Source: Panorpa germanica
Lineage: Eukaryota > Arthropoda > Insecta > Mecoptera > Panorpidae
Direction of reading: 5' to 3'
Length of the DNA: 64,000 nt
Assembly: GCA_963678705.1 (NCBI GenBank)
Contig: OY783219.1
Coordinates: 13,268,001 to 13,332,000 of the forward strand
Below the pieces are notes generated by a model. The model was not told the DNA's origin and did not search any database. It was given only the letters and a program-made list of their open reading frames with translations. This document shows, in pieces, positions 26,130 through 52,059 of the stretch (its first letter is position 1; every line of letters starts with the position of its first letter). The position numbers were made by a program, and so were the translations under genes.

Positions 26130-26329
26130 ATTAAAAGAAAAAATTATTCCCAACAATTATTATTACAAAAACATAATACTAAGTTCCGTGGTCCTAGGAA
26201 TCCCGTAAATTATTAATAAGATTAAAAAAAAATTACAAAGTTACATAATCATAATTTTTAATTTACTAATACTTTAATTTATTATTATTATTATTATTTA
26301 ATAATTGTTTTGCCTCCCGCCGGTACAGT

Positions 26330-26650
26330 TTACATCCTACAGTTCCATATTTAATGTTTCTTGCCTTTTGTGATTATATTTCATTTCTTTCTTACTTAGT
26401 AATATACTAAACTACTAAAAAATAAAAACTGATGCTATCTATTCCATTTTCTCCCCTTTCTTAATGTTGCTGTGTTCTTCTGCACTCCTTAACCATTTTC
26501 TCATCTGTGCTTGTTTCCTGTTCCTCTTCTTCCTCACTTCTTCATGGTTACTTCGCCATCAACCTCTTTCTTTGTTGTCGCCTCTCAATAGCTTCTTTAC
26601 CCTCCTTTCACTGACAATTATGAATTCGCACTCCTTTCTAATTATTTAAT
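26330..26650 (-). repeat. Pyrimidine-rich dispersed repeat (family R-E), copy 5
   Basis: A C/T-rich block with TGTGTTCTTCTGCACTCC and TCCTCTTCTTCCTCACTTC. It lies about 320 bases upstream of the giant gene. No promoter element could be identified in it. Confidence 0.35.
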
Positions 26651-26964
26651 ATGTAACAAAATATAATCTTGCATAAAATGCTTTATTAAGGTCAGAAAAT
26701 GTAAATTTATGTCGAAAGGTTATTATATAACCTTTTTAGCCTTATAACCTTTTGTTATATAATACTTTAAAACATTTGAATCCAGTTTCTTAAGTTACTT
26801 GCTACCTGCAAAGCGGCTTCGCTTTCAAGTTAGCAAATAACAGAGACAGAGATAATATATTGTAAAACAGAAAAATTTCATTAATACTTTAAATTCTAAA
26901 TTACTTCATTTTAGGTGAATTATGTGATTCGAACTTCATTAAACTAATGAGGTAGGAGAAAAAG

Positions 26965-29900
26965 ATGTTATGTAATACGATAAAAGTAATATTAATATAT
27001 GCAATAGCTATTTTAATAACTTTCAAAAACAAAATACACAAATTAGACAAATACGAAACCAAAGCAACTTTAGATCCGGAAATAAGCACGATTGTAATAA
27101 ATACTGAAACAAAGAAAAATACAAGAGATATCCATGTCTTCCTAGAAATAGAAACATATGATACTGACCCAAATACTGAAACTATAGATAGTCTTACAAA
27201 TTTGATTACTACTATTACGACAACTAAAACCGATGTAACTAGTGCAACAAAACATAGTTCTATTGATCGTAATTCCACAATGTCAAAAAAAACAACTGTA
27301 CAGGCTACCACAAAAGATATTGGTAAATTAATTCATACTAAGACTGAAAGTAATGTTGTTATAATACATACTACGGAAGAAAATGATGCTGATTTGATTC
27401 CTACTATGTCAGAAAGTAATGCTAACAGAATCCCTACTACGAAAGAAAGTAATGCAGATATCATTCCAACTACAATAGAAAGTAATGCAGACAAAACCTT
27501 TACTACGATAGTAAGTAATGGTGATATAATTCCTACTACAATAGAAATTAATGAAGATGTAATTCTTACTACATCAGGAAGTAATTCTAATATATTTCCT
27601 ACTACAACAGAAAACAAAGCCCATCTTACTCTCAGCACGACAAAAAGTAATGCTGATATAATTCACTATACAACATCAAGTACTACTAATATGATTTCTA
27701 CTACGTCAGAAAGTAATGCAGATATGATTCCCACTACAATAGAAAGCCAAGCTAATATAATTTCTACTACAATAGAAAGTAGTACCGATATAATTTTTAT
27801 TACAATAGAAAGTAGTGCTAATTTAATTTCTACTACAATGGAAAGTAATGCTGATATAATTTCTACTACAACAGAAAGCAATGCTAATATAATTTCTACT
27901 ACAATTGAAAGTAATGCTGATATAATTTCTACTACAATAGAAAGTAATGCTGTTAATATTTCTAATACATCAGAAAGTAATGCTGATATAATTTCTACTA
28001 CAATAGAAAGTAATGCTGATAAGAGTTCTACTACAATAGAAAGTAATGCTGATAAAATTTCTACTACAATAGAAAGTAATGCTGATATAATTTCAACAAC
28101 AATAGAAAGTAATGCTAATGTAATTTCTACTACAATAAAAAGTAATACTGATATAATTTCTACTACAATAGAAAGTAATGGTAATGTAATTTCTACTACA
28201 ATAAAAAGTAATGCTGATATAATTTCTACTACAATAGAAAGTAATGCTGATAATATTTCTACTACATCAGAAAGTAATGCTGATATGCTTTCAACTACAA
28301 TAAAAAGTAGTACCGATATACTTTTTACTACGATAAAAAGTAATGCTGATATAACTTTTACTACAATAGAAAGTAATGCTGATAGTATTTCTAATACATC
28401 AGAAAGTGATGCTGATAAGATATCTAACACATCAGAAAGTAGTACTGATATAATTTTTACTACAATAGAAAATATTGCTGATGTAACTTCTGCTACAATA
28501 GAGAGTAATGCTGATATAATTTCTACTTCAATAGAAAGTAATGCTGATTTAATTTATTCCACAGTAAAAAGTAATGCTGATATAATTTATACTACAACAG
28601 AAGGCAATTCTAATATAATTTCTACTCCAATAAAAAGTAATGCTGATATATTTTCTACTACAATAGAAAGTAATGCTGATGTAATTTCTACTACAATAGA
28701 AAGTAATGCTGATATAATTTCTACTACAATAGAAAGTAATGCTGATGTAATATCTACTACAATAGAAAGTTATGCTGATATAATTTCTACTACAATAGAA
28801 AGTAATGCTGACAATATTTCTAATACATCTGAAAGTAATGCTGATATAATTTCTATATCAATAGAAAGTAATGCTGATAATATTTCTAATACATCTGAAA
28901 GTACCGCTGATATAATTTCTGCTACAATAGAAAGTATTGCCGATAATATATCTATTACAGCAGAAACTATAGCTGATATTATTTCTACTACAACAGAGAG
29001 TAATGCAGATAAGATATATAATACATCAGAAAGTAGTACTGACTTAGTTTCTACTACAATAGAAAGTAATGCTGATATAATTTATTCTACAATAAAAAGT
29101 AATGCAGATTTAATTTCTACTTCAATAAAAAGTAATGCTGATTTAATTTCTACTACAATAGAAAGTAATGCTGATAATATTTCTAATACATCAGAAAGTA
29201 ATGCTGATATAATTTATACTACAACAGAAGGCAATTCTAATATAATTTCTACTACAATAGAAAATAATGTTGATATAATTTCTACTACAATAAAAAGTAA
29301 TGCTGATATAATTTTAACTACGATAGAAAGTAATGCTAATATAACTTCTAGTACAACAGAAAACAATGCTAATATAAATTTTACTACAATAGAAAGTAAT
29401 GCTGATATAATTTCTACTACAATAGAAAGTAATGCTGATATAACTTCTACTACAATAAAAAGTAATGCTGATATAATTTCTACTACAATAGGAAGTATTG
29501 CTGATATAAATTCTACTACAATAGAAAGTAATGCTGATATAATTTCTACTACAATAGAAAGCAATGCTGATATAACTTCTACTACAATAAAAAGTAATGC
29601 TGATATAATTTCTACTACTTCAAAAAGTAGTACCGATATAATTGTAACTACAATAGAAAGTAGTGCTGATATAATTTCTACTACAATAGAAAGTAATGCT
29701 GATATATTATCTACTACAACAGAAAGCAATGCTAATATAATTTCGACTACAATAGAAAGTAATGCTGATAATATTTCTAATACATTAGAGGGTAATGCTG
29801 ATATAATTTTAACTACAATAGAAAGTAATGCTGATAATATTTCTAATACATTTGAAAGTACAGCTGATATAATTTCTACTACAATAGAAAGTGATGCTTA

Positions 29901-32900
29901 TAAGATAACTAATACATCAGAAAGTAGTACTGATATAGTTCTTACTACAATAGCAAATATTGCTGATGTAATTTCTACTACAATAGATAGTAATGCTAAT
30001 TTAATTTATTCCACAATAGAAAGTAATGCTAATATAACTTATACTACAACAGAAGGCAATTCTAATATAATTTCTACTACAATATTAAGTAATGTTGATT
30101 TAATTTCTACTACAATAGAAAGTAATGTTGATTTAATTTCTACTGCAATAGAAAGTAACGCAGATAAAATAAACAATACATCAGAAAGTAGCACTGACTT
30201 AATTTCTGCTACAATAGAAAGCAATGCTGATATAATTTATACTACAATAGAAAGTAATGCTGATGTAATATCTACTACAATAGAAAGTAATGCTGATATA
30301 ATTTCTACTACAATGGAAAGTAATGCTGATAATATTTTTAATACATCAGAAAGTATTGCTGATATAATTTCTACTACAATAGAAAGTATTGCCGATAATA
30401 GTTCTAATACAGCAGAAACTATAGCTGATATTATTTCTACTACAACTGAGAGTAATGCAGATAAGATATATAATACATCAGAAAGTAGTACTGACTTAAT
30501 TCCTACTACAATAGAAAGTAATGGTGATATAAATTTTACTACAAAAGAAAACAATGCTAATATAATTTCTACTTCAATAGACAGCAATGCTGATATAATT
30601 TTTACTACAATAGAAAGCAATGCTAATATAATTTCTACTACAATAGAAAGAATTGCTGATATAATTTCTACTACAAGAGAAAGTAATGCTGATAATGTTT
30701 TTAATACATCAGAAAGTAATGCTGATATAATTTATACTACAACAGAAGGCAATTCTAATATAATTTCTACTACAATAGAAAGTAATGCTGATATAATTTC
30801 TACTACAATAGAAAGTAATGCTCATATAATTTTAACTACAATAGAAAATAATGCTAATATAATTTCTAGTACAACAGAAAACAATGCTAATATAATTTTT
30901 ACTACAATAGAAAGTAATGCTGATTTAATTTCTACTACAATAGAGAATAATGCTGATATAATTTCTACTACAATAGAAAGTAATGCTGATTTAATTTCTA
31001 CTTCAATAGAAAGTAATGCTGATATAATTTCTACTACAATAGAAAGTATTACTGATATAATTCTTACTACAGCAGAAAGCAATGCTAATATAATTTATAC
31101 TACTGTAGAAAATAATGCTGATATAACTCCTACTGCAATAGAAAGTAATGCTAATATAATTTCTACTACAATAGAAAGTAATGTTGATATAATTTCTACT
31201 TTAATAGAAAGTAATGCTGATATAATTTCTACTACTATAGAAAGTAGTACCGATATAATTGTTACTACAAGAGAAAGTAGTGCTGATATAATTTCTACTA
31301 CAATAGAAAGTAATGCTGATATAATTTCTAATACAATAGAAAGTAATGCTGATGTAATTTCTACTACAATAGAAGGTAATGCTGATATATTTTCTACTAC
31401 AATAGAAAGTAATGCTGATGTAATATCTACTACAATAGAAAGTACTGCTGATATAATTTCTACTACAATTAAAAGTAATGCTGATAGTATTTCTAATACA
31501 GCAGAAAGTATAACTGATATTATTTTTACTACAACAGAGAGTAATGCAGATAAGATATATAATACATCAGAAAGTAATACTGACTTAATTTCTACTACAA
31601 TAGAAAGTAATGCTGATATAATTTTTACTACAACAGAAAGCAATGCTAATATAATTTCTACTACAATAGAAAGTATTGCTGAAGTAATTTCTACTTCAAT
31701 GGAAAGTAATGCTGATATAATTTCTATTACAATAGAAAGTATTACAGATATAATTCTTACTACAACAGAAATCAATGCTAATATAATTTCTACTACAATA
31801 GAAAATAATGCTGATATAATTCCTACTTCAATAGAAAGTAATGCTAACATATTTTCTACTACAATAGAAAGTAACGCTAATATAATTTCTACTACAATAG
31901 TAATTAATACTGATATAATTTCTACTACAATAGAAAGTAATGCTGATAATATTTCTAATATATCAGAAAGTAATGCTGATATAATTTCTTCTACAATAGA
32001 AAGTAATGCTGATAATATGTCTACTACAATAGAAAGTGATGCTAATAAGATAACTAATACATCAGAAAGTAGTACTGATATAATTTTTACTACAATAGAA
32101 AATATTGCTGATGTAATTTCTGCTACAATAGAGAGTAATGCTGATATAATTTCTACTTTAATAGAAAGTAATGCTGATTTAATTTATTCCACAGTAGAAA
32201 GTAATGCTGATATAATTTATACTACAACAGAAGGCAATTCTAATATAATTTCTACTAGTATAGTAAGTAATGTTGATTTAATTTCTACTACAATAGAAAG
32301 TAATGTTGATTTAATTTCTACTGCAATAGAAAGTAACGCAGATAAAATAAACAATACATCAGAAAGTAGCACTGACTTAATTTCTGCTACAATAGAAAGC
32401 AATGCTGATATAATTTATACTACAATAGAAAGTAATGCTGATGTAATATCTACTACAATAGAAAGTAATGCTGATATAATTTCTACTACAATGGAAAGTA
32501 ATGCTGATAATATTTCTAATACATCAGAAAGTATTGCTGATATAATTTCTACTACAATAGAAAGTATTGCCGATAATAGTTCTAATACAGCAGAAACTAT
32601 AGCTGATATTATTTCTACTACAACTGAGAGTAATGCAGATAAGATATATAATACATCAGAAAGTAGTACTGATTTAATTTCTACTACAATAGAAAGTAAT
32701 GGTGATATAAATTTTACTACAAAAGAAAACAATGCTAATATAATTTCTACTTCAATAGAAAGCAATGCTGATATAATTTCTACTACAATAGAAAGCAATG
32801 CTAATATAATTTTTACTACAATAGAAAGAATTGCTGATATAATTTCTACTACAAGAGAAAGTAATGCTGATAATGTTTTTAATACATCAGAAAGTAATGC

Positions 32901-35900
32901 TGATATAATTTATACTACAACAGAAGGCAATTCTAATATAATTTCTACTACAATAGAAAGTAATGCTGATATAATTTCTACTACAATAGAAAGTAATGCT
33001 CATATAATTTTAACTACAATAGAAAATAATGCTGATATAATTTCTAGTACAACAGAAAACAATGCTAATATAATTTTTACTACAATAGAAAGTAATGCTG
33101 ATTTAATTTCTACTACAATAGAGAATAATGCTGATATAATTTCTACTACAATAGAAAGTAATGCTGATATTATTTCTACTACAATAGAAAGTAATGCTGA
33201 TATAACTTCTACTACAATAAAAAGTAATGCTGATATAATTTCTACTACTTTAAAAAGTAGTACCGATATAATTTTTACTACAATAGAAAATTTTGCCGAA
33301 GTAATTTCTACTACAATAGAAAGTAATGCTGATTTAATTTCTACTTCAATAGAAAGTAATGCTGATATAATTTCTACTACAATAGAAAGTATTACTGATA
33401 TAATTCTTACTACAGCAGAAAGCAATGCTAATATAATTTATACTACTGTAGAAAATAATGCTGATATAACTCCTACTGCAATAGAAAGTAATGCTAATAT
33501 AATTTCTACTACAATAGAAAGTAATGTTGATATAATTTCTATTTTAATAGAAAGTAATGCTGATATAATTTCTACTACTATAGAAAGTAGTACCGATATA
33601 ATTGTTACTACAAGAGAAAGTAGTGCTGATATAATTTCTACTACAATAGAAAGTAATGCTGATATAATTTCTAATACAATAGAAAGTAATGCTGATGTAA
33701 TTTCTACTACAATAGAAGGTAATGCTGATATATTTTCTACTACAATAGAAAGTAATGCTGATGTAATATCTACTACAATAGAAAGTACTGCTGTTATAAT
33801 TTCTACTACAATTAAAAGTAATGCTGATAGTATTTCTAATACAGCAGAAAGTATAGCTGATATTATTTTTACTACAACAGAGAGTAATGCAGATAAGATA
33901 TATAATACATCAGAAAGTAATACTGACTTAATTTCTACTACAATAGAAAGTAATGCTAATATAATTTTTACTACAACAGAAAGCAATGCTAATATAATTT
34001 CTACTACAATAGAAAGTATTGCTGAAGTAATTTCTACTTCAATAGAAAGTAATGCTGATATAATTTCTATTACAATAGAAAGTATTACAGATATAATTCT
34101 TACTACAACAGAAATCAATGCTAATATAATTTCTACTACAATAGAAAATAATGCTGATATAATTCCTACTTCAATAGAAAGTAATGCTAACATATTTTCT
34201 ACTACAATAGAAAGTAACGCTAATATAATTTCTACTACAATAGTAATTAATACTGATATAATTTCTACTACAATAGAAAGTAATGCTGATAATATTTCTA
34301 ATATATCAGAAAGTAATGCTGATATAATTTCTTCTACAATAGAAAGTAATGCTGATAATATTTCTACTACAATAGAAAGTGATGCTGATAAGATATCTAA
34401 CACATCAGAAAGTAGTACTGATATAATTTTTACTACAATAGAAAATATTGCTGATGTAATTTCTGCTACAATAGAGAGTAATGCTGATATAATTTCTACT
34501 TTAATAGAAAGTAATGCTGATTTAATTTATTCCACAGTAGAAAGTAATGCTGATGTAATTTATACTACAACAGAAGGCAATTCTAATATAATTTCTACTA
34601 CAATAGAAAGTAATGTTGATATAATTTCTACTACAATAAAAAGTAATGCTGATATAATTTTAACTACGATAGAAAGTAATGCTAATATAACTTCTAGTAC
34701 AACAGAAAACAATGCTAATATAAATTTTACTACAATTGAAAGTAAAGCTGATATAATTTCTACTACAATAGAAAGTAATGCTGATATAACTTCTACTACA
34801 ATAAAAAGAAATGCTGATATAATTTCTACTACAATAGGAAGAATTGCTGATATAAATTCTACTACAATAGAAAGTAAAGCTGATATAATTTCTACTACAA
34901 TAGAAAGTAATGCTGATATAACTTCTACTACAATAAAAAGTAATGCTGATATAATTTCTACTACTTTAAAAAGTAGTACCGATATAATTGTAACTACAAT
35001 AGAAAGTAGTGCTGATATAATTATTACTACAATGGAAAGTAATGCTGATATATTATCTACTACAACAGAAAGCAATGCTAATATAATTTCGACTACAATA
35101 GAAAGTAATGCTGATAATATTTCTAATACATTAGAGAGTAATGCTGATATAATTTTAACTACAATAGAAAGTAATGCTGATAATATCTCTAATACATCTG
35201 AAAGTACAGCTGATATAATTTCTACTACAATAGAAAATGATGCTAATAAGATAACTAATACATCAGAAAGTAGTACTAATATAGTTCTTACTACAATAGA
35301 AAATATTGCTGAAGTAATTTTTACTACAATAGAAAGTAATGCTAATTTAATTTATTCCACAATAGAAAGTAATGCTAATATAAGTTATACTACAACAGAA
35401 GGCAATTCTAATATAATTTCTACTACAATAATAAGTAATGTTGATTTAATTTCTACTACAATAGAAAGTAATGTTGCTTTATTTTCTACTGCAATAGAAA
35501 GTAACGCAGATAAAATAAACAATACATCAGAAAGTAGCACTGACTTAATTTCTGCTACAATAGAAAGCAATGCTAATATAATTTATACTACAATAGAAAG
35601 TAATGCTGATGTAATATCTACTACAATAGAAAGTAATGCTGATATAATTTCTACTACAATAGAAAGTAATGCTGATTATATTTCTAATACCTCAGAAAGT
35701 AATGCTGATATAATTTCTACTACAATAGAAAGTAATGCTGATAATATTTCTAATACATCTGAAAGTTTACCTAATATAATTTTTACAACAATAGGAAGTA
35801 ATGCTGATAATATTTTTAATACATCTGAAAGTACAGCTAATATAATTTCTACTACAATAGAAAGTTTTTCTGATAAGAGTTCTACTACAATAGAAAGTAA

Positions 35901-38900
35901 TGCTGATATAATTTCTACTACAATAGAAAGTACTGCTGATATAATTTTAACTGCAATGGAAAGTAATGCTGATGTAAGTTCTACTACAACAGAAAGCAAT
36001 GCTAATATAATTTCTACTACAATTGAAAGTAATGCTGATAATATATCTAATACATCAGAAAGTAATGCTGATATAATTTCTGCTACAATAGAAAGTAGTA
36101 CCGATATAATTGTTACTACAATAGAAAGTAGTGGTAATATAATTTCTACTACAATAAAAAGTAATGCTGCTGTAATTTCTACTACAATTGAAAGTAATGC
36201 AGATGTAATATCTACTACAATAGAAAGTAATGCTGATATCATTTCTACTACAATGGAAAGTAATGCTGATAATATTTCTAATACATCAGAAAGTATTGCT
36301 GACATAATTTCTACTACATTAGAAAGTATTGCTGATAATAGTTCTAATACAGCAGAAACTATAGCTGATATTATTTCTACTTCAACTGAGAGTAATGCAG
36401 ATAAGATATATAATACATCAGAAAGTAGTACTGACTTAATTTCTACTACAATAGAAAGTAAAGGTGATATAAATTTTACTACAAATAAAAACAATGCTAA
36501 TATAATTTCTACTTCAATAGAAAGCAATGTTGATATAATTTCTACTACAATAGAAAGCAATGCTAATATAATTTCTACTACAATAGAAAGAATTGCTGAT
36601 ATAATTTCTACTACAACAGAAAGTAATGCTGATAATGTTTTTAATACATCAGAAAGTAATGCTGATATAATTTATACTACAACAGAAGGCAATTCTAATA
36701 TAATTTCTACTACAATAGAAAGTAATGCTGATATAATATCTAGTACAACAGAAAACAATGCTAATATAATTTTTACTACAATAGAAAGTAATGCTGATTT
36801 AGTTTCTACTACAATAGAGAATAATGCTGATATAATTTCTACTACAATAGAAAGTAATGCTGATATTATTTCTACTACAATAGAAAGTAATGCTGATATA
36901 ACTTCTAATACAATAAAAAGTAATGCTGATATAATTTCTACTACTTTAAAAAGTAGTACCGATATAATTTTTACTACAATAGAAAGTACTGCTGATATAA
37001 TTTCTACTACAATGGAAAGTAATGCTGATATAATATCTACTACAACAGAAAGCAATGCTAATATAATTTCGACTACAATAGAAAGTAATGCTGATAATAT
37101 TTTTAATACATCAGAGAGTAATGCTGATATAATTTTAACTACAAAAGAAAGTAATGCTGATAATATTTCTAATACATCTGAAACTACAGCTGATATAATT
37201 TCTACTACAATAGAAAGTGATGCTTATAAGATATCTAATACATCAGAAAGTAGTACTGATATAGTTCTTACTACAATAGAAAATATTGCTGATGTAATTT
37301 CTACTACAATAGAAAGTAATGCTAATTTAATTAATTCTACAATAGAAAGTAATAGTAATATAATTTATACTACATCAGAAGGCAATTCTAGTATAATTTC
37401 TAATACAATAGTAAGTAACGTTGATTTAAGTTCTACTACAATAGAAAGTAATGTTGATTTAATTTCTACTACAATAAAAAGTAATGCTGCTGTAATTTCT
37501 ACTACAATAGAAACCAATGTTGATGTAATATCTACTACAATAGAAAGTAATGCTGATATAATTTCTACTACAATGGAAAGTAATGCTGATAATATTTCTA
37601 ATACATCAGAAAGTATTGCTGATATAATTTCTATATCAATAGAAAGTAATGCTGATAATATTTCTTATACATCTGAAAGTACCGCTGATATAATTTCTAC
37701 TACAATAGAAAGTATTGCCGATAAAATTTCTAATACAGCAGAAACTATAGCTGATATTATTTCTACTACAACTGAGAGTAATGCAGATAAGATATATAAT
37801 ACATCAGAAAGTAGTACTGACTTAATTTCTACTACAATAGAAAGTAATGGTGATATAAATTTTACTACAGAAGAAAACAATGCTTATATAATTTCTACTT
37901 CAATAGAAAGCAATGTTGATATAATTTCTACTACAATAGAAAGCAATGCTAATATAATTTCTACTACAATAGAAAGAATTGCTGATATAATTTCTACTAC
38001 AACAGAAAGTAATGCTGATAATGTTTTTAATACATCAGAGAGTAATGCTGATATAATTTATACTACAACAGAAGGCAATTCTAATATAATTTCTACTACA
38101 ATAGAAAGTAATGCTGATATAATTTCTACTACAATAGAAAGTAATGCTCATATAATTTTAACTACAATAGAAAGTAATGCTGATATAATTTCTAGTACAA
38201 CAGAAAACAATGCTAATATAATTTTTACTACAATAGAAAGTAATGCTGATTTAGTTTCTACTACAATAGAGAATAATGCTGATATAATTTCTACTACAAT
38301 AGAAAGTAATGCTGATATTATTTCTACTACAATAGAAAGTAATGCTGATATAACTTCTACTACAATAAAAAGTAATGCTGATATAATTTCTACTACTTTA
38401 AAAAGTAGTACCGATATAATTTTTACTACAATAGAAAGTAGTGCTGATATAATTTCTACTACAATGGAAAGTAATGCTGATATAATATCTACTACAACAG
38501 AAAGCAATGCTAATATAATTTCGACTACAATAGAAAGTAATGCTGATAATATTTTTAATACATCAGAGAGTAATGCTGATATAATTTTAACTACAAAAGA
38601 AAGTAATGCTGATAATATTTCTAATACATCTGAAACTACAGCTGATATAATTTCAACTACAATAGAAAGTGATGCTTATAAGATATCTAATACATCAGAA
38701 AGTAGTACTGATATAGTTCTTACTACAATAGAAAATATTGCTGATGTAATTTCTACTACAATAGAAAGTAATGCTAATTTAATTAATTCTACAATAGAAA
38801 GTAATGGTAATATAATTTATACTACATCAGAAGGCAATTCTAGTATAATTTCTAATACAATAGTAAGTAACGTTGATTTAAGTTCTACTACAATAGAAAG

Positions 38901-41900
38901 TAATGTTGATTTAATTTCTACTACAATAAAAAGTAATGCTGCTGTAATTTCTACTACAATAGAAACCAATGTTGATGTAATATCTACTACAATAGAAAGT
39001 AATGCTGATATAATTTCTACTACAATGGAAAGTAATGCTGATAATATTTCTAATACATCAGAGAGTATTGCTGATATAATTTCTATATCAATAGAAAGTA
39101 ATGCTGATAATATTTCTTATACATCTGAAAGTACCGCTTATATAATTTCTACTACAATAGAAAGTATTGCCGATAAAATTTCTAATACAGCAGAAACTAT
39201 AGCTGATATTATTTCTACTACAACAGAGAGTAATGCAGATAAGATATATAATACATCAGAAAGTAGTACTGAGTCAATTTCTACTACAATACAAAGTAAT
39301 GCTGATATAATTTCTACTACAACAGAAAACTATGCTAATATAATTTCTACTTCAATAGAAAGCAATGCTGATATAATTTCTACTACAATAGAAAGCAATG
39401 CTTATATAATTTCTACTACAATAGAAAGTATTGCTGATATAATTTCTACTACAATAGAAAGTAATGATGATAATATTTTTACTACAATAGAAATTAATGC
39501 TAATATGATATCTAATACATCAGAAAGTAGTACTGATATAATTCTTACTACAATAGAAAATATTGCTAAAGTAATTTCTACTACAATAGAAAGTAATGCT
39601 GATTTAATTTCTACTTCAATAGAAAGTAATGCTGATATAATTTCTACTACAATAGAAAGTATTACTGATATAATTCTTACTACAGCAGAAAGCAATGATA
39701 ATATAATTTATACTACTGTAGAAAATAATGCTAATATAACTCCTACTGCAATAGAAAGTAATGCTAATATAATTTCTACTACAATAGAAAGTAATGTTGA
39801 TATAATTTCTACTTTAATAGAAAGTAATACTGATATAATTTCTACTACTATAGAAAGTAGTACCGATATAATTGTTACTACAATAGAAGGTAGTGCTGAT
39901 ATAATTTCTACTACAATAGAAAGTAGTGCTGATATAATTTCTAATTCAATAGAAGGTAATGCTGATGTAATTTCTAATACAATAGAAGGTAATGCTGATA
40001 TAATTTCTACTACAATAGAAAGTAATGTTGATATAATTTCTACTTTAATAGAAAGTAATGCTGATATAATTTTTACTACAATTGAAAGTAATGCTGATAA
40101 TATTTCTAATACAGCAGAAAGTATAGCTGATATTATTTCTACTACAACAGAGAGTAATGCAGATAAGATATATAATACATCAGAAAGTAGTACTGACCTA
40201 ATTTCTACTACAATAGAAAGTAATGCTGATATAATTTCTACTACAACAGAAAGCAATGCTAATATAATTTCTACTACAATGGAAAATAATGCTGATATAA
40301 TTCCTACTACAATAGACAGTAATGCTGTTATATTTTCTACTACAATAGAAAGTAATGGTAATATAATTTCTACTACAATAGAAATTAATACTGATATAAT
40401 TTCTACTACAATAGAAAGTAATGCTGATAATATTTCTAATATATCAGAAAGTAATGCTGATATAATTTCTACTACAATAGAAAGTAATGCTGATAATATT
40501 TCTAATATATCAGAAAGTAATGCTGATATAATTTCTACTACAATAGAAAGTAATGTTGATAATATTTCTACTACAATAGAAAGTGATGCTGATAAGATAT
40601 CTAACACATCAGAAAGTAGTAATGATATAATTTTTACTACAATAGAAAATATTGCTGATGTAATTTTTACTACAATAGAGAGTAATGCTGATATAACTTC
40701 TACTTCAATAGAAAGTAATGCTGATTTAATATATTTCACAGTGGAAAGTAATGCTGATATAATTTATACTACAACAGAAGGCAATTCTAATATAATTTCT
40801 ACTCCAATAGAAAGTAATGTTGATATAATTTATACTACAATAGAAAGTAATTCTGATTTAATTTTTACTACAATAGAAAGTAATGCTGATATAATTTCTA
40901 GTACAACAAAAAACAATGCTAATATAATTTCAACTACAATAAAAAGTAATGCTGATATAATTTCTACTACAATAGAAAGTAGTACCGATATAATTGTTAC
41001 TACAATAGAAAGTAGTGTTGATATAATTTTTACTGCAATGGAAAATAATGCTGATATAATTTCTAGTACAACAGAAAACAATGCTAATATAATTTCAACC
41101 ACAATTGAAAGTAATGCTGATATAAGTTCTTCTACAACAGAAATCAATGCTAATATAAATCCTACTACAATAGAAAGTAATGCTGATAATATATCTAATA
41201 CATCAGATAGTATTGCTGATATAATTTCAACTACAATAGAAAGTAATGTTGATAATATTTTTAATACATCTGAAAGTACAGCTGATATAATTTCTACTAC
41301 AATAGAAAGTGATGCTGATAAGATATCTAATACTTTAGAAAGTAGTACTGATATAATTCATACTACAACGGATAGCAATGCTAATATAATTTTCACTACT
41401 ATAGAAAGTAAAGCTGATATAATTTCTACTCTAATAGAAAGTAATGCTGATATAATTTCTACTACAATAGAAAGTAGTACCGATATAATTGTTACTACAA
41501 TAGAAAGTAGTGCTGATATAATTTCTACTACAATGGAAAGTAATTCTGATATATTTTTTACTACAATAGAAAGTAATGCTGATGTAATTTCTACTACAAT
41601 AGAAAGTAATGCTAATATTATTTCTACTACAATAGAAAGTAATGCTGATGTAATATCTACTACAATAGAAAGTTATGCTGATATAATTTCTAGTACAATA
41701 GAAAGTAATGCTGATAATATTTCTATTACATCTGAAAGTAATGCTGATATAATTTCTATATCAATAGAAAGTAATACTGATAATATTTTTAATACATCTG
41801 AAAGTACCGCTGATATAATTTTTGCTACAATAGAAAGTATTGTTGATAATATTTCTAATACAGCAGAAACTATAGCTGATATTATTTCCACTACAACTGA

Positions 41901-44900
41901 GATTAATGCAGATAAGAAATATAATACATCAGAAAGTAGTACTGACTTAATTTCTACTACAATAGAAAGTAATGCTGATATAATTTCTACTACAACAGAA
42001 AGCAATGCTAATATAATTTTTACTACAGCAGAAAGCAATGATATTATAATTTATACTACTGTAGAAAATAATGCTAATATAACTCCTACTGCAATAGAAA
42101 GTAATGCTGATATAATTTCTACTACTATAGAAAGTAATGCTGATAATATTTCTAATACATCAGAGAGTAATGCTGATATAATTTCTACTACAACTGAAGG
42201 AAATGCTAATATAATTTCTACTACAATGAAAAATAATGCTGATATAATTCCTACTGCAATAGAAAGTAATGCTGATAGTATTTCTAATACATCAGAAAGT
42301 AATGCTGATATAATTTCTACTGTAATAGAAAGTAATGTTGATATAATTTCTACCTCAATAGAAAGTAGTACCGGTATAATTCTTACTACAATAGAAAGTA
42401 GTGCTGATATAAATTCTACTACAATGGAAAGTATTGCTGATATAATTTCTACTACAACAGAAAGCAATGGTAATATAATTTCTACTACAATAGAAAGTAA
42501 TTCTGATATAATTTCTACTACAATAGAAAGTAATGCTGATATAATATCTACTACAATAGAAAGTAATGCTGATAAAATTTCTAATACATCCGAAAGTAGT
42601 ACTGATATAATTATTACTACGGCAGAAAATAATGTTAGTTTTGTGTTTATTACGACAGAAAGTTTAATTAGTTTGATTTCTTCTACGACAGATAATAATA
42701 ATAATACTGAAAAATATAGTTCTATTGACGTGACTCTGACAGGGATTACATCAACAGAAGTTGCCGCTGATATAGAAATTCAAAATTCTTATGATGAAAG
42801 TAATCTTATTGTTACCAGCAACGATATCCCAACTTCTTTCGCTAGTACTATTGAAATTGGTGCAATAATGTCTTTAATTGCTAATGAGTTTGAAAATGAA
42901 CCTACAGTATCTGGTACCGAAAAAAGTTCAACTGATGGGGGTTACATTTCAGTTATAGATTCTACCACTGCTACTGATATTTTATCTTCTGTTAGTAAAG
43001 AATTTATAAATAATAACACAAATTTAGATTTATTGCAATTGACAGATTCTGCGAACGTTATAAATAATGAAGCCAGTACTACAATTGAAATATCAACATC
43101 TAGCGATACTTTATCGACTTCTTCTTTTACTATTAACACTACATCTATTAATAATACATCTTCGAAACATAAAGAAAGTCACAAAACTAAAGATAGTAAT
43201 TCTACTGTTAGTAATACTTCAACTACACATAAGACTACTTCAACCCATAAAAAAGAGAAAGATGATCATAAAAACAAGGATACTACAATGGCAATGGTAA
43301 GTATTTCTATTTCATTATTTTTAATAGAAAAATATATATTTACAATTTCTCTCAAAGTTTTGAAAAATATATAATATATTTCCTATAATTAATGTAATAA
43401 TATTTTAATCTTATTTATTTTTTAATTGTCCTATATTATAATGTTCCAAGTGATTCTTATATGTTTATATATTTATATGTTTGGTACTGAATTTTGTATG
43501 GTAGCTCGAAAACGACTCTAGGGAAGTTTTTGAAAATTTCGTATTTCGTAGAGCAAAAAGTTTTAAGACCTTTGGCATCTCCGGATTTTTCCCTGAATTT
43601 CCTGGAAACCCGTAACTTTGGAAAAACTGGAAACTGCTTTATAACTTTGCAATCGTAAAAAATGGAAAGGTGACATTTTGCATGTGTATTACGCTATTGC
43701 ATGCGAATAACATATTCATATTTCAAAACTTAGAAATTCTAAATTTTATAAAAGGGGCCCTGAGAAATTTAGGGGGCCCGGTAGGAAACTTTGGAGAAAG
43801 CTAAAATTTTGGATTGTGTAATAATTGAATATCATTTTAAAAAAAAATTCAAAATTTTATTTGGGGGTGCGGGGGCGGTTTTTGCCAATGGTAAAAATTG
43901 TGCTAGAAAGTTAAATTTTTTTAAATAGGCTAACTTTGGTACCTAATTTACAAATAAAAAAAAAAAATCCCAAAAGTTGATCAAATAACGAATAAATTGA
44001 AAATATTTTTTATTTTGCTGAAAGAAATATATTTTTTTAGTTAATTTATATGAAAAATTATTTGTTTTTATATGTAAAATTTATATAAAACGAGTTAAAT
44101 ATTCCAATTTAAAAATGGAATTAAAATTTGAAATAAAATTCAATTCACACACAAAAGACGGGGGTAAACTCAAGTTTTTTTAAATGTGTATTGGCGTTTT
44201 TATTTTATTAAGTATTTAAATGTTGACGGAGATATAGCAATTAAAAACTTGAATTTTAGTTTTACCGCAACAGATGTCGGCATGTTTATGGCGTATCCAT
44301 GTAGTGGGATAGGTCAGTTATTTGTTGATTAGGTCAGTGCTGTGGTAATGTTTTGTATTCAGTACACATGCGTTAGTTAGAAAAGAATAATAAATTTTCA
44401 TGTTATTTAACCCTCTTACGACAGACATAATATTGAACGTAACATACAGTTGAAATTTTCAATACGGTTAATTCAAAATCTGTCAAACCAACTATGTTTA
44501 TGATGTAAAGTTGTCAGAGTTCTGTCTTGAATATGTTATCTCTTTTACGCCTTGTTGTAGAAAAGAGATAGCACCTTAACGGTTGTGAGGTCACATGTCT
44601 CCTACAACGTTGAATCCCTTTAATAATTGAAGAGACAATATGACTTTTCTAATTGTTAATATCCCATAACATATAAGCAGTTGGAATAATTGGGCATTTG
44701 AGATTCTAGTAACCCACTTGATCAAAATATAGTGCACTTCTATAGAAATTAAGACATAGGATACAAGCCCATTGCTATATCTACGTGAACATTTAGATAT
44801 TTAAATAAAGAGTCCATTACATTAATTAACATCTATTTCAATAAACAATTAAAAAATCGACTCCTAAAAAATAACTTCATAAGCCCAGTGTAATTTCTGT

Positions 44901-47900
44901 ATTTACGGTTAAAATTTAATAATTATTTAAAAGACATTTGTAAGTATTTTGTAAGTAGTAATTTGTAAGTATTAAAATAAACTTAGAATAAATGTTTTCC
45001 AACATCGTATTTACAAGCATTCTATGCTTGTAACTTGTATACACCTAAATAGAAGTTGACTATACGTGGTGTATAAAAAATTCAGTATCAATTATATTTT
45101 ACTTCAGCTAAAATTTTACAATTATTTAAGAAACATATTAATTAATCTATTTATTAAAAAAGAAACAATTAATAAATGTTTTCCAACAAGGTGTTAATTC
45201 GTGTTTTACTTTTGCTGATATTAAAACTTCAATATAAGACATTAATTGATAAATTTGTATATTACAAAATAATATTTAAGTTACCTAATAATAATAGAAA
45301 GTAGTACTGACTTAAGGGGTTATATCCACTTGCGAGGCAGAAAAAACGCGTTTTTTTGTGAATTTTTTCTAAAGACGCATTTTATTTTATACATTAATGG
45401 AAAAAATGTTCTTAAACAGAATTTAATGTACTTTAACAATCAGCGGTTTATTTAAAAAAATATTGAATCCCCTAGCTCCTGTAGATGACCTCCAAAAAAA
45501 AGTGCTTGGCGGTGACCAAGATATCTCTGGTCCAAATTATCTGAAAACCAAAAACCAAAAATATTTAGTTTTGTAATAAATAAATACAGGTAATGATCGA
45601 AGGTCTAGTCAAAATTTTAATTTTTGACAAAATGGCGGCTGTTCAAAAAAAAAAATTTAGTTTTTCATGAAAATTTTTCACTTCAAAGTGGCTTGAAAAA
45701 TCGAAATTATTGTCCAAAACCTTATTCCTTCGATCATTACCTGAAAAATATATCTGAGTAAGTCGTGTGAAAATTTCAAACTGATCGGTTTAGCGGTTTC
45801 GGAGAAATTTTGGTCACCGACTCTGAAAACACGGTTTTAAAATAAAAGCGTTTAAAGTTTCGGGAACGATTTACACTAAATTAAAATTTTTTTTTTTTCA
45901 ACTTACATCGTGTCATCTATTCCAGCACCATAAGAGGAACCCTCTGCTTCATCGTTTGCCTCCAAAATGTTTAGTTGTTGTTGTCTACGAGCCATTATCC
46001 CCTCGCGCGTCGACCCTTGCCATCTTGCGTCCGAAATTGAGATGCGCTCTGCGTCCTCTTTACTCACGTAGGAATGAGCATTGGGTCCCTTTCTAACGCT
46101 CGGAGACGTTCTTACTAAAACGCTCATATCTCCGAAACTAATTGTCGGATCGATTTGAAATTTTCAGAGAATATTCTTGAATATATGTACATTCAAAAAA
46201 TGAAAGAAAAAAAAAATCGATTTTTTGAAAATCACAAGTGGATATAACCCCTTAATTTCTACTACAATAGAAAGTAATGATGCTATAATTTCTACAACAA
46301 CAGAAAGCAATGCTAATATAGTTTCTACTACAATAGAAAGTAATGGTAATATAATTTTTACTACAATAGAAAGTATTGCTGATATAATTTCTACTACAAT
46401 AGAAAGTACTGCTGATATAGTTTCTACTACCATAAAAAGCAATCCTGATTATATTTCTAATACATCAGAAAGTAGTACTGACTTATTTTCTACTACAATA
46501 GAAAGTAATGCTGATAAGATATCTAATACATCAGAAAGTATTACTGACTTAATTTCTACTACAATAGAAAGTAATGCTGATATAATTTCTACTACAACAG
46601 AAAGCAATGCTAATATAATTTCTACTACAATCTTAATATATATAAATTACGTGTCACTGCATCTCTCCGCGATGGACTCCTAAACTACTTAACCGATTTT
46701 AATCAAATTTGTACACCGTGTGCAGTTTGGTCCAACTTGAAAGATAGGATAGCTTAAATCTCAATTTATTTATCTTATTGCTAATTATTTGTTTATTAAT
46801 TATCTGTATATGACATATGACATCGGGCGACCATGATGGCGACATCTGTTGACTAGATTGAGTAAATATTCTGTTGAGTAAATCGAAATCTGTTGACTAG
46901 ATTGAGTAAATATTCAATAAATGGCGCTACGTTAGGCACAGCAACGCGTGGCCGAGACAGCTAGTAGTGTATAAAATATTGAGTATTAAATATATTTTAC
47001 TTCGGCTAAAATTTTGCAATTATTTAAGAAACATATTAATTAATCTATTTATTAAAAAAGAAACAATTAACAAATGTTTTCCAACAAGGTGTTAATTTGT
47101 GTTTTACTTTTGCTGATATTAAAACTTCAATATAAGACACTAATTGATAAATTTTTATATTACAAAATAATATTTAAGTTACCTAATACATCTACAGTCT
47201 AGCGTTATTGGAATACTATTCTAAATGTACTGATTGGCTATGTAATTTACAGTTTGATTTAATATCAAATTTATTTTGAAAGACAGCACTATCCCGAATT
47301 GATTGTGTTCTTCTCCGACGTGTTTAGCAGACGTTGGGTCATTCTTTGAACCCTTAACTTTTAATATTTTATCCACTACAGTCATACGAGTATTTAATAA
47401 ATATTTTATTTTGGTTTTTAGTCTAACGAAATATCCACTGATGAAGCTCCCATTACTATTGATACGTTCACTAATAGCACCAATTCAACTGAGAAAACAA
47501 CAACAGTTCACCACAATAAGAATAATGATAAGAAAAAAGGACTTGTAAGTATTAGTTTTTAATTTTATCAATGATTTCTTCTAAACCTCCCAAAAATTAA
47601 AGAAATTTTTATATTTTTAATCTTCATAAAGTCATCATAATAAAAGGTCTTGGCTATTTAGATAAGTAAACAAGTAATTTAATTATACATCAGACATTTA
47701 ATATTTTTATGGCCTACTTTTATTTGGTTTAAGTAATATAGTAATTTAGAATAGGTATATGAAAATCCATTAAATATTGTGAATTATAAAAATTGTAGAC
47801 CTTTTTCGGCACCATGCTTAAATGTATTTTTATGGAAGTCCGATAACAATATTTATGACTATTTACATGACCATTTATGATTCACAACGCAATAGTTATT

Positions 47901-50900
47901 TCTTAAGTGCTTTTATTACCAGTGTTTTTGACCTTCCATTAGTTTAATTTACTTACTAGAACTGATTTGAAATATATAACATTCTTATATTAAGTTTTGA
48001 ACCAACAACATCTTAGTTATAAATCTCAATATAAATTCCTAATCTAAGATTCAAGCATTGCGCTACTTAGGTTGAGTCTTAAGCAACGAACATAGTTGCG
48101 GTTTGTTCTCATGCAATAACCATCATTGTTATTCTAAAGCTGTATTGAAACTTAGTTTTTAGTAGCATTCTTACATGCTGCTACAGCATTAAATAAACCA
48201 ATTCACTAAATAAACATTCACGTGGACTCTTTTTTATAAACAATCAAACGTGCATTACAGTATTGTCAAACAGCACAATACAAATAAGCATTTGTACAAA
48301 ATAACCGCGGTAAACTAACCGTGGCTCAGACAATATCTATTTCTTTACTTATTTGTGTTTTTAGTGATATACACATATAAGCCGCGTTCTCACGGGGCGA
48401 GTTTAGTTGAACGATCTTGGTTCATAGATAAGAAGAATAAAATTAACTAAACGAAGTGAGGTTCATACGTTTCAAGTGAAACTAATCAACATTTGAAAGA
48501 GAAATTTCTTTTTACTGCAAACAGATAATATTCGTAAATAACGCAAAAAGTCCATTTATAAATTAATAGTTAATTAAAATGACTCTAAAAATTAAAATGA
48601 CTCTAAATGCAGTTGTGAAAAGGCTGTAATCAATGGCGTAGCGTGCCTTAGACGGACCCTGTATCAAAATTTGTCGGGGGGCCCAAAGGATAGTTAAAAT
48701 TTTTCATAAAAAGAACAAAAACGCTCGCATTGAATTAAAATAATTATATATTTATTATACGTTATTACTTACAATTAATATTCCTAGAAACTAAGCTAGC
48801 CAAGCAATTCAAATCAAATATACACTTTTCTTGCCTTTTGTTCGGCGAACTTATTAAGTTTTAATTTAAAAAAAACTTCTTTCAACTAGTGCAGTTGTAA
48901 TCGGAAGGGCCATGAATAGAAAGCATGCAGTTATTACCTCCGGAAAACTGGATGCAAGGCTATAGAATTTTATTAGCAATAATTCCATAAATTCGAACGA
49001 ATATATTTATAAGCATCTTTTCAAAGCAAAGTTCATAAAGATCAACAGACATGTCTTTACTGTATTTAGCAGACAGTTTTCCGTCACACTTTTTTATTAT
49101 TTCGTTTGAAGAAGATAAGACTTTCTCTGGTTGCAATACTTCGAACATATTACTTAGGTCACAAAGGCTCTGAAATCTTTAGCAATAGTACACATTGACT
49201 CCGGGTCTGAAATTCTCTCGTCTTCTGATAGCTCATCAAAAAAACGCTTCGTTATTTTCTTTCTTTTATTTTTCAAAACAGTTGCTATTCCCCATTCTTT
49301 TGCTAGATCTCTGGACTCGTTTAGCAAACAATGGAATGAATTTTCATTTCTTATTTCGTTCAGTCTATTCAAAAGATTACATAAAATGCAAAATGTTAGC
49401 GTTCTGTAAGTTATTAAACTCCTGCTGTAAAGCTTTAGAAACAAGATTAATGATTTCAAATAGTGCAGAAAGAATTTTTGCTTACACACGTTTGGGGCCC
49501 CTATAGCCCGGGGGCCCCGTATCATTGATACGGCAGATACGGCGGTAGCTACTGGCTGTAATACGTTTAATAGCAATTATATTAAAAACAATGTTACTGA
49601 AATGAAACAAGCGACGATATTGGGTTTGGCGATGATTTTGAGAGGACATAGATTAGGTCTGAAATTTTAGTAAAGGAACTTGCGCTAGAGAACAAAGAGC
49701 AATGTAGAAACCATTTTAGGTTGCTTGAATAATAATTTATTTAATTAATAATAATTTAGAAAAACTTTTTTATCTAAATCTTTTTTTATAAGTATGTGGA
49801 AGAAATACAAAACAAAATCACGATAATCGTAACGTAAAATTGGAATGTGATCTCATTTAATAAAAAGTTAATAAATTCTATAATATCGCAAATTAAATAA
49901 AAATAATTGTATATTTGAGGATGTGATAGCCAATTAATTGTACAGTGCAGTATGTATTTATTTGATAATGTGTGTGTCGTTAGACATTCTTTCAATATTA
50001 AATTACGTAATTACATCTTTTTTCATTTTTCTAATTCAAAAGCACTTTCTGATTCTTATACTCTTGTCCTTATATCTTCTTGTTCTCTGCTTCTCCTTCT
50101 TGCCTGTACCCTCGGCACTCACATCTAGTCTTCCTTGTTTCCTCTCGACAAACCTTCTATTATATTTTCACTATGCGTCCTAAAGTAGCATTCTCCCCTC
50201 CTAAGTTCCCTACGTCTCTTTTTTTCTCTTACATCTTCTGCCGATTCTCCCTTTCATATCTTCTAAATATCTGTTTTCCATCTCTTCATTGTTCATTCTA
50301 TATCTTTAAGCTATTTCTCCTATATCTTCCCTTTTTTCTTTCCACATCACCTCTAGTCATAAACGACTTTCTACTTTCTCCTGGCTCTTAATGTGTTCTA
50401 TCTTGTTCTCTTCTAGCCCTTTCATGCGGTCTACTTGCTCTCCTGTGTTACGTTACATGTCTCATTGTCTTCATTTCCCATTGTCCTGCTCTTTACCTCC
50501 TTCATCCATTTTATTCAACTTGCTTTTCCTTTTAGCATCTTCCTTTTCCTACACCCTGCAGCGTTTCTCTTCTACTGTTCCCCAATACCTATTACCACTC
50601 TCTTCATTCCCCAGTCTAAAGGTAGCAATCGTTTTCACATCCTTTCCCCCTTGGTTTGACTAAGTCAAACTTTTTTGGAACCATTCAGTAGTTGATCCAT
50701 CAGAATGTAAGCTTCTCACGGGTCGATACTGAAAATCGAACTAACTTGGTCGAGTAAAATCGCTCCGTAAGAACGCAGCTTTACCTATTTGTCTATTTAT
50801 ACAGAGGGGATGAATGTTATTAGTAAAATTAAATCTTTTTTTGCAGAGAGAACTAAAGGAGCAAAATGACAATGAGAAACGTGAAAAATGGGGCGCAAAT

Positions 50901-50945
50901 AAGAAAGACAAAAAAAAAAAATATGGCGGTGGTTTTATGCAATGA
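26965..50945 (+). CDS. Giant secreted Ser/Thr-rich 11-residue-repeat protein
   Basis: Exons 26965-43296, 47422-47544 and 50847-50945 join in phase 0 (donors ATG|GTAAGT and CTT|GTAAGT; acceptors TTTTTAG and TTTGCAG), giving 5517 residues. The ATG follows an in-frame TAG at 26953. Residues 1-22 (MLCNTIKVILIYAIAILITF) look like a signal peptide. Residues about 125-5230 are about 460 tandem copies of TTIESNADIIS and variants (NISNTSESSTD, NFTTKENNAN), with many potential O- and some N-glycosylation sites and almost no Cys. The repeat-free region after that is Ser/Thr-rich, then basic and His-rich (THKKEKDDHKNKD). The last exon reads KREKWGANKKDKKKKYGGGFMQ-like and stops at 50943-50945. A mucin-like, silk-like or matrix role is inference; I recognise no family. 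A 12-A tract (50910-50921) precedes the stop, and the +1 frame beyond it encodes a Cys-rich tail ending at 51024. Confidence 0.75.
27340..42650 (+). repeat. Coding tandem array of 33-bp units
   Basis: About 464 units with consensus ACTACAATAGAAAGTAATGC then TGATATAATTTCT. Units vary at few positions and never break frame. Long blocks recur at spacings that are exact multiples of 33 bp: 30039/32217 (66 units), 32217/35385 (96), 29214/34560 (162), 37055/38507 (44). The complement is also nearly stop-free, producing long antisense frames without meaning of their own. Confidence 0.95.
43500..44010 (+). repeat. R-D dispersed repeat, copy 2
   Basis: Contains TTTCCTGGAAACCCGTAA, GGGGCGGTTTTTGCC-like and TGTGCTAGAAAGTTAAA phrases shared with 56190-56890 and 22563-22890. 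It lies in the first intron of the giant gene. Confidence 0.5.
44185..44772 (+). repeat. R-C repeat copy in the giant gene's first intron
   Basis: Begins inside the family (AATGTGTATTGGCG) and ends AAGACATAGGATACAAGCCC. It is followed at once by an inverted fragment of the left end of the family (44774-44886, ending AACTTCATAAGCCC). Confidence 0.6.
45069..45290 (+). repeat. 222-bp intronic direct repeat, left copy
   Basis: Nearly identical to 46966-47188 (phrases TTTTCCAACAAGGTGTTAAT, TTGCTGATATTAAAACTTC). The pair brackets the detached 33-bp repeat block in the first intron of the giant gene. Confidence 0.8.
45291..46630 (+). repeat. Detached block of the 33-bp coding repeat
   Basis: About twelve units (45291-45315 and 46252-46630), interrupted by a TTAA-flanked element. 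Translation keeps the 11-residue pattern (IESSTDL, STTIESN). No splice donor follows it: the block ends directly at a Helitron. It is therefore read as an intronic relic rather than an exon, though an unspliced or alternative use cannot be excluded. Confidence 0.75.
45316..46251. mobile_element. TTAA-flanked element with GGGGTTATATCCACTTG ends
   Basis: A 936-bp element with inverted ends GGGGTTATATCCACTTG and CAAGTGGATATAACCCC. TTAA stands on both sides (45312-45315 and 46252-46255). The uninterrupted phrase GTAGTACTGACTTAATTTCT occurs many times in the main array and is the exact empty site. TTAA targeting is the hallmark of the piggyBac superfamily. A 74-codon frame on the minus strand (46127-45903) is not recognisable as a transposase, so the copy is probably non-autonomous. 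Confidence 0.8.
46631..46964 (+). mobile_element. Short non-autonomous Helitron
   Basis: Starts TCTTAATATATATAAATTA after an A, ends GGCCGAGACAGCTAG before a T, and has no terminal inverted repeats. It is 334 bp and closely related to 5984-6337 and 54478-54831. It sits at the end of the detached repeat block. Confidence 0.8.
46966..47188 (+). repeat. 222-bp intronic direct repeat, right copy
   Basis: Right member of the pair with 45069-45290. It starts immediately after the flanking T of the Helitron and ends ACCTAATA, as does the left copy. Confidence 0.8.
47545..48622. other. Second intron of the giant gene, no gene seen
   Basis: AT-rich intronic sequence between exon 47422-47544 and the hAT element. 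Neither strand shows a supported exon or element boundary. Confidence 0.45.
48631..49554 (-). mobile_element. Internally deleted hAT element with 8-bp target duplication
   Basis: The left end CAATGGCGTAGC and the right end GTAGCTACTG are inverted relatives. GCTGTAAT flanks both sides (48623-48630 and 49555-49562), the 8-bp duplication expected of hAT. The minus strand encodes a remnant of a ZMYM1-like transposase: NESRDLAKEWGIATVLKNKR, KRFFDELSEDERISDPES and MFEVLQPEKVLSSSNEII, in disrupted frames. The palindromic GGGGCCCC pair (about 49493-49517) is kept. Too short to be autonomous. It lies in the second intron of the giant gene. Confidence 0.8.
50040..50660 (-). repeat. Pyrimidine-rich dispersed repeat (family R-E), longest copy
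   Basis: Six hundred bases of C/T-rich sequence. Several overlapping frames are open in all three plus-strand phases, because pyrimidine-rich DNA lacks stops, so none is called as a gene. Confidence 0.4.
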
Positions 50946-51072
50946 GCCGAAGTGTTTGCCCACATATTACAATGCCAAAAGTTTGATCACAGAATGCTGC
51001 GAGCGTCACAAATTTTGCGATTAGCCTTAATGTAAACAATGCAAGAATATAAGGTTTTGAACTCTTTATTGA

Positions 51073-51078
51073 AATAAA
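51073..51078 (+). promoter_or_regulatory. Poly(A) signal of the giant gene
   Basis: AATAAA in TTATTGAAATAAAATAT, 128 bases after the frame-0 stop and 49 bases after the stop of the alternative Cys-rich frame. It supports a transcript end near 51.1 kb. Confidence 0.6.
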
Positions 51079-51179
51079 ATATAGCTTAAAATAATATAAA
51101 CTTATAATAAGTAAAGATAGTAAAAATACAATATATTAACAAATCACAGATCACCTTTGTTGAAATTATATGTAATTAT

Positions 51180-51400
51180 AATTTTAACTGTTAAATACAA
51201 GATGAGAAAGAGAAATGAGGAGGAATTATGAAGGAAGAGTGATAGTGGCGGCGGAGGTAGAAAGACAAAGGGAAGAGGTAAGAGAGGTGTGGAATCTAAT
51301 AATGGAACGAGATTAAGAGATTCGACAACAAAATATGATGAAGAGGATGGATGAAGTTATTAAGGTTTAATTTATTGTTTGTTATCTATTTATATTAATG
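51180..51400 (+). repeat. Purine-rich dispersed repeat (R-E, forward orientation)
   Basis: G/A-rich sequence (GAGGAGGAATTATGAAGGAA, GGCGGCGGAGGTAGAAAGAC) with the same texture as the blocks at 52060 and 58010 and the complement of the pyrimidine-rich copies. Confidence 0.35.
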
Positions 51401-51986: not shown

Positions 51987-52059
51987 AAATACATTATCGA
52001 ATATATGCCTTTTTTGTATCGATTTGACCTTATATACCCCTCTACTCCCCACTTAAGAG

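Follow-up and report, generated by a model that had tools for sequence, protein, structure and literature searches.

A single-copy gene of the scorpionfly Panorpa germanica with a giant exon of 466 tandem 11-residue repeats, predicted to encode a structural protein

A 64,000-nucleotide stretch of the genome of Panorpa germanica (assembly GCA_963678705.1, contig OY783219.1, positions 13,268,001–13,332,000 of the forward strand), hereafter the window, contained a locus at which one reading frame ran through several hundred copies of an 11-residue repeat. The window was free of N. The window lies on chromosome 16 of this species, for which the published account of the assembly gives a length of 14.5 Mb (PMC11464959); an alternate haplotype, GCA_963678655.1, is named there as well. 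An earlier reading of the letters, here called the original prediction, had described one giant exon of about 460 repeat units, closed by a splice donor and followed by two further exons and a poly(A) signal. The gene model comprised the following features.

26965–43296 (+): exon 1, coding, 16,332 bp and 5,444 codons, with the 3′ end ACAATGGCAATG followed by GTAAGT
26965–27303 (+): non-repeat N-terminal part, 113 codons, with a hydrophobic, signal-peptide-like segment at residues 8–20 and then basic residues
27304–42681 (+): array of 466 contiguous 33-bp (11-residue) units with the consensus TTIESNADIIS, without net frameshift
42682–43296 (+): non-repeat Ser/Thr/Asn-rich end of exon 1, 205 codons, Lys-rich toward its end
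43297–47421 (+): putative intron 1, GT-AG, phase 0
47422–47544 (+): exon 2, coding, 41 codons, Thr/Asn-rich, with the 3′ end GGACTT followed by GTAAGT
47545–50846 (+): putative intron 2, GT-AG, phase 0
50847–50945 (+): exon 3, coding and including the TGA stop, 32 residues, Lys/Glu/Asn-rich, ending GGGFMQ
51073–51078 (+): candidate poly(A) signal, sequence motif AATAAA

The open reading frame (ORF) at 26956–43374 (+) extended across 5,472 codons, with its first ATG at 26965. The claim of a single exon open through some 460 units held, with 466 contiguous units between 26965 and 43296. The coding frame was free of stops throughout the array, whereas the remaining two forward frames contained 691 and 941. 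Tandem Repeats Finder placed 463.3 copies of a 33-bp period at 27346–42634, with matches at 79% and indels at 0%. At the protein level, one register held from residue 114 to residue 5239, giving 466 adjoining 11-mers over 15.4 kb (235 distinct units as protein and 277 as DNA). The consensus was matched at six or more of the 11 places in 449 of the 466 units, at eight or more in 335, and exactly in 26. An alternative register was equal or better in a single unit, the first. When the units were grouped in bins of 20, the mean consensus match was lowest in the first bin (7.15), while 18 of the other 23 bins lay between 8 and 9 and five between 7.6 and 7.95. The copy number derives from the published assembly, which was built from 52-fold high-fidelity (HiFi) reads of DNA sheared to 12–20 kb on average and has a quality value of 59.9 (PMC11464959). 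The 15.4-kb array is about as long as a HiFi read, and 466 is to be taken as the assembly's value.

The non-repeat flanks of the array were compared with the six frames of 12000–26900, 43400–45280, 47600–50800 and 51000–64000; positions 1–12000 were excluded from this background because of long Helitron frames there. Open stretches of 113 codons occurred at 121 of 63,264 background positions and open stretches of 205 codons at 0 of 61,056. When the flanks themselves were shuffled under a first-order Markov model, 1 of 20,000 shuffles was open for the 113 codons and 0 of 20,000 for the 205 codons. The flanks are open beyond chance.

To count changes between units, the 277 units distinct as DNA were joined in a minimum spanning tree, a crude picture of unit relatedness that does not give the direction of changes. 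The tree contained 506 changes, of which 428 were single changes within their codon and were counted, whereas 78 in codons with several changes were excluded. About 8 stops were expected on the tree (about 4 if half of it is real), and 0 were observed. Charge was altered less often than expected (75/428 versus 102.5, p = 0.0015), and Cys was neither gained nor lost in any change (0/428 versus 6.8, p = 0.0017). Changes to or from Arg (6 versus 14.0, p = 0.028) and to or from Lys or Arg (39 versus 52.8, p = 0.047) were also depleted, and changes within the group ILVMF were enriched (61 versus 43.4, p = 0.006). Because 12 tests were made, only the charge and Cys results survive strict correction.

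Downstream of the array, the giant exon was closed by GTAAGT directly after 43296, as had been claimed. The same hexamer followed 47544, and both acceptors (before 47422 and 50847) were AG. Both putative introns were of phase 0, so exons 2 and 3 continue the frame of exon 1 to a stop ending at 50945, and an AATAAA motif lay at 51073; the corresponding parts of the original prediction thus stood. We infer from these signals that the three exons are joined by splicing.

The repeat was confined to a single locus. Searches of the P. germanica genome covered 464,208,970 bases in 249 contigs, a version slightly different from the published total of 464,228,243 bp in 254 scaffolds (PMC11464959), with E ≤ 0.001 as the match threshold. 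The repeat gave at least 134 matches (148 candidates, all scored), and all 134 fell here, between 13295340 and 13314590 of contig C16; two of them were a piece of the array within intron 1. The C-terminal 278 residues matched only their own three exons, and the N-terminal 113 residues matched only themselves. The single location argues against a dispersed satellite, and a dispersed or multi-locus satellite was ruled out by this together with the coding signature. A gene family within the genome was ruled out as well, since the searches with both ends found this locus only. The fixed register, the open flanks, the avoidance of charge and Cys changes and the single locus give good support to a real giant coding exon.

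Searches for relatives were made with pieces of the protein. In Pfam, the two end pieces gave a sole match, Muted, at 13.4 bits, and exon 2 together with two 16-unit array pieces gave AlkZ-rel (19.8 bits) and Senescence (15.8 bits); all three were below the cut-off, and for the latter two no single stretch passed alone. Two array pieces and both ends gave only matches far below the cut-off in NCBIfam. Among PDB sequences, the best matches of one 16-unit piece (E 0.024) were an ankyrin-type entry and a repeat protein of artificial design, neither of them credible. Pattern matches to the 205-codon end of exon 1 in viral contigs (8) and to one 16-unit array piece in prokaryote genome contigs (162) yielded 0 confirmed relatives in either set, and Rfam and tRNA scans of the window were empty. 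The statement that the protein belongs to no described family agrees with the lack of a credible match in Pfam, NCBIfam and PDB for the pieces scanned, although a compositional class, the mucin-related proteins discussed below, fits. A search confined to the open PMC library found no paper on a giant insect protein with a threonine-rich 11-residue repeat, which does not establish absence from print. The titles and opening lines of abstracts of open PMC papers on scorpionfly saliva, glands and transcriptomes likewise reported no such sequences.

The predicted protein, with the three exons joined, comprised 5,517 residues (approximately 584 kDa, isoelectric point 4.05). Its main constituents were Ile (20.0%), Thr (17.8%), Ser (17.0%), Asn (11.5%), Glu (8.1%), Ala (7.4%) and Asp (7.2%), with Ser and Thr together at 34.8%; Gly was outside the 12 commonest residues. 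Acidic residues (846 Asp + Glu) far outnumbered basic ones (130 Lys + Arg). Proline was rare (24 of 5,517 residues, or 0.4%; 19 of 5,126 in the array), and the protein contained one tryptophan and one cysteine, the latter outside both the array and the C-terminal part. There were 123 N-glycosylation sequons. The C-terminal part of 278 residues contained 9.7% Lys.

The N-terminus carried the hydrophobic run VILIYAIAILITF, followed by the basic stretch KNKIHKLDK. The secretion-like N-terminus of the original prediction thus finds support only in part: the hydrophobic run is there, and the basic stretch directly after it leaves the signal ambiguous. The tripeptide AIA at residues 13–15 is presumably a possible signal cleavage site. 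Given this arrangement of the N-terminus, the protein is likely, but not certain, to be secreted. The proposal that it is extracellular, very large and either glycosylated or fibrous is plausible.

Within the unit, hydrophobic residues were most frequent at place 10 (426 of 466 units), place 9 (383) and place 3 (319). Mean Chou–Fasman values, which are crude, were high for beta structure at places 1–3 and 9–10 and high for turns at places 5, 6 and 8. By these propensities, places 9–10 and 1–3 would be beta-prone, with a turn near S-N-A-D and a turn-prone place 11 in between.

Blocks of units recurred within the array, always offset by a multiple of 33 bp. Identity was 98 and 99% for the two longest blocks, of 40 units, and went down to approximately 91% for shorter ones. 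The recurrence of blocks and the pattern across bins are consistent with unequal exchange of whole units. Intron 1 contained a further, shorter stretch of the array amid other repeats, which is absent from the original account.

45093–45282 (+): dispersed repeat, copy 1, 97% identical to copy 2
45312–46255 (+): element bounded by TTAA, with inverted ends of 19 bp (AAGGGGTTATATCCACTTG), that interrupts the intronic array piece
46253–46631 (+): part of the 33-bp array within the intron, with 90.5% identity to the exonic units near 31290
46990–47180 (+): dispersed repeat, copy 2, 97% identical to copy 1

Because the intronic array piece lies between two dispersed repeats that are 97% identical, it probably arose by local duplication. 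Further copies of the dispersed repeat, about 80% identical, occurred on other contigs among the 40 candidates scored out of 413. The TTAA-flanked element, which resembles a piggyBac-type miniature inverted-repeat transposable element, splits the intronic array piece. A short element at about 46630–46964 closes this piece; it starts with TC, ends with CTAG and has ends that look Helitron-like by eye.

Known repeat proteins offered partial parallels. According to a published composition rule, true mucins have at least 20–25% Ser + Thr and at least 5% proline or proline-containing repeats, and mucin-related (Mur) proteins have at least four Ser/Thr-rich repeats without proline and Ser + Thr above 20–25% (PMC2515642). 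The Panorpa protein reaches the Ser + Thr level of a true mucin (34.8%) but not its proline content (24 of 5,517 residues; 19 of 5,126 in the array), while its 466 units and 0.4% proline agree with the Mur rule. By this rule it is mucin-related and not a true mucin. The Mur class of Drosophila shares with it Ser/Thr-rich repeats lacking proline; the class is, however, compositional and not a homology family, and an Ile-rich 11-residue unit does not appear in its description as given there (PMC2515642).

The salivary glue genes of Drosophila have fast-changing repeats with a high ratio of nonsynonymous to synonymous substitution rates (dN/dS; 1.393 for Sgs1), and the longest Sgs protein reported, Sgs1 of D. 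suzukii, has 2,245 residues with approximately 63 repeats of 29 residues (PMC6352337). Sgs1, Sgs3, Sgs4 and Eig71Ee resemble the Panorpa protein in their long, fast-changing, Ser/Thr-rich tandem repeats and non-repeat C-terminus (PMC6352337). In contrast, the Panorpa protein has 0.4% proline, 20% Ile, one Cys and phase-0 3′ introns. Sgs1, Sgs3, Sgs7, Sgs8 and Eig71Ee have a phase-1 intron in the signal peptide, whereas its N-terminal hydrophobic segment lies within the giant exon, and the multiple cysteines and Pro-rich repeats of the Sgs proteins are lacking (1 Cys, 0.4% Pro). It therefore falls outside the fly glue family, although by analogy it may work like those glue proteins. The egg-stalk silks of lacewings (MalXB1/2, ChryC1–3) also have a fixed short period, 16 residues as against 11, which is held responsible for their cross-beta form (PMC5485732). 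These silks are rich in Ser, Gly and Ala and carry a C-terminal Cys motif, and the Chrysoperla proteins are of 30–78 kDa (PMC5485732), whereas the predicted Panorpa protein is rich in Ile, Thr, Ser and Asn, has no Cys in its C-terminal part and is of approximately 584 kDa. Neither the silk composition nor the Cys motif was found in it. As regards cross-beta features, it has an exact 11-residue period, mixed propensities and a hydrophobic pattern without visible selection. Parasitoid-wasp cocoon silk was dropped as a candidate, as the genome is that of Panorpa.

Elsewhere in the window, a Helitron-type element occupied 6840–11450 (−), with a 1,137-residue ORF containing Helitron_like_N, PIF1 and Pif1_2B domains and, just upstream of it, a 394-residue ORF with no Pfam match above the cut-off. 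A frame at 19487–19702 (+) encoded the first half of cytochrome c (Cytochrom_C above the cut-off). A 184-bp tandem pair with 98% matches lay at 53598–53969. Exons of a sugar-transporter gene were found at 55383–62701 (−), with Sugar_tr above the cut-off in three pieces and MFS_1, Sugar_tr and MFS_2 below it in a fourth. In the wider assembly, 19 COX1-like pieces, 17 of them above the Pfam cut-off, lay outside the mitochondrial contig, on contigs C1, C3, C5, C6, C10, C12, C15, C16, C21 and C115; they are likely nuclear copies of mitochondrial DNA.

Our preferred reading, to which we assign a probability of roughly 0.55, is that the locus is a genuine single-copy gene for a giant structural protein, most likely exported by a gland and working through its bulk material properties instead of a folded active site. 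Each unit would probably contribute short beta-prone segments (D-I-I, T-T-I) and a polar, turn-prone link (S-N-A-D), and with hundreds of units the chains could assemble as sheets or a gel. The acidic residues and the Ser/Thr hydroxyls would leave the material open to hydration, sugar, phosphate or calcium. Unequal exchange of whole units, in blocks of up to about 40, would lengthen or shorten the array while frame and overall charge were kept. In an insect, the likeliest product would be a salivary or accessory-gland glue, a coat or a silk-like secretion.

Several observations weigh against this reading. No overall restraint on replacement was visible on the spanning tree, where synonymous changes (90/428 versus 88.1 expected), hydrophobic-to-other changes (92 versus 91.1), gains or losses of Ser/Thr (135 versus 140.9), Pro changes (10 versus 10.6) and Gly changes (15 versus 17.2) were all near expectation. 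As the hydrophobic and Ser/Thr changes are at chance, neither the beta pattern nor the places of Ser/Thr are visibly selected. Likewise, 16 duplicated block pairs, overlapping and taken from the listed runs, differed by 52 synonymous and 280 nonsynonymous changes, a ratio of nonsynonymous to synonymous differences (pN/pS) of approximately 1.5. The intronic array piece, presumably untranslated, was also stop-free over approximately 380 bp, which makes the openness of the array weak evidence on its own. Within the unit, place 11 favoured turns (1.25), place 4 had a low beta value (0.43), and the array-wide alpha, beta and turn means were barely apart (0.985, 1.025 and 0.992). The K-N-K-I-H-K after the hydrophobic N-terminus is unusual for a cleaved signal, and under the charge rules basic residues after a hydrophobic run indicate a possible membrane anchor that would keep the array intracellular. 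Taken together with the open frame and the charge and Cys results, these observations point to a translated array, with selection on the frame and on coarse chemistry and without selection on exact residues.

The near-neutral replacement, the open intronic piece and the low share of random changes that create a stop in the unit (about 1.6%) would also fit a non-coding minisatellite that expanded free of stops by chance, beside a small unrelated gene or none. We consider this very improbable, given 15.4 kb without net frameshift, open unique flanks of 113 and 205 codons, the avoidance of charge and Cys changes and the single locus. A membrane-bound or intracellular giant protein, with a hydrophobic stretch that stays uncleaved as an anchor and a cytoplasmic array, is improbable, though less so: KNKIHKLDK directly follows the run and the protein has one Cys, which lies outside the array, but AIA at residues 13–15 presumably offers a cleavage site, and a Ser/Thr/Asn-rich composition with many sequons is more usual in exported proteins. 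A mucin-like lining or lubricant of the gut, egg coat or cuticle surface, in the form of an extended and heavily O-glycosylated chain, is an unlikely reading, though more probable than these two. The 34.8% Ser + Thr, the 123 sequons, the mucin-related composition (PMC2515642) and a beta pattern without visible selection are consistent with it, whereas 24 prolines in 5,517 residues and 20% Ile are unlike Pro-rich mucin repeats, and chitin-binding or other mucin-associated Pfam domains were not found in the pieces scanned.

Within the preferred reading of a gland-exported structural protein, a narrower and doubtful proposal is that the hardened salivary nuptial gift of the male, which comes from enlarged glands, sets and is eaten, has this protein among its major structural components. 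Panorpa scorpionflies may offer hardened salivary masses (PMC8983043), males of Panorpa that secrete such gifts have enlarged salivary glands (PMC3783485), and the size, Ser/Thr richness and near-neutral repeats would, by analogy, resemble those of insect salivary glues. However, the accessible text of PMC8983043 and PMC3783485 contained no statement of saliva-giving by P. germanica itself, which was named only in the reference list of the latter and not in the former, and some panorpids give prey only or no gift, with P. liui reported to provide prey in place of saliva (PMC3783485). Many other glands also secrete such proteins, and an egg coat or gut lining would suit equally well. It is a similarly tentative suggestion that the main scaffold of the gift is a hitherto undescribed, Pro-poor, Ile/Thr-rich material of 11-residue repeats, encoded by this gene, whose length shifts by unequal exchange.

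The locus clearly illustrates how a reading frame can stay open through hundreds of units although the residues themselves drift with little restraint. With 5,517 residues, the predicted protein is more than twice as long as the longest Sgs glue reported (2,245 residues, PMC6352337), and, if confirmed, it would add a Pro-poor, Ile-rich 11-residue repeat type to the secretion proteins of insects. Because the gene is single-copy and has unique ends, allele length could be compared among males, among populations and between Panorpa species that do and do not give salivary gifts. Such comparisons would open the molecular basis of this well-studied nuptial gift to direct testing, and if the gift proposal is true, a sexually selected secretion would be traceable to one giant exon.

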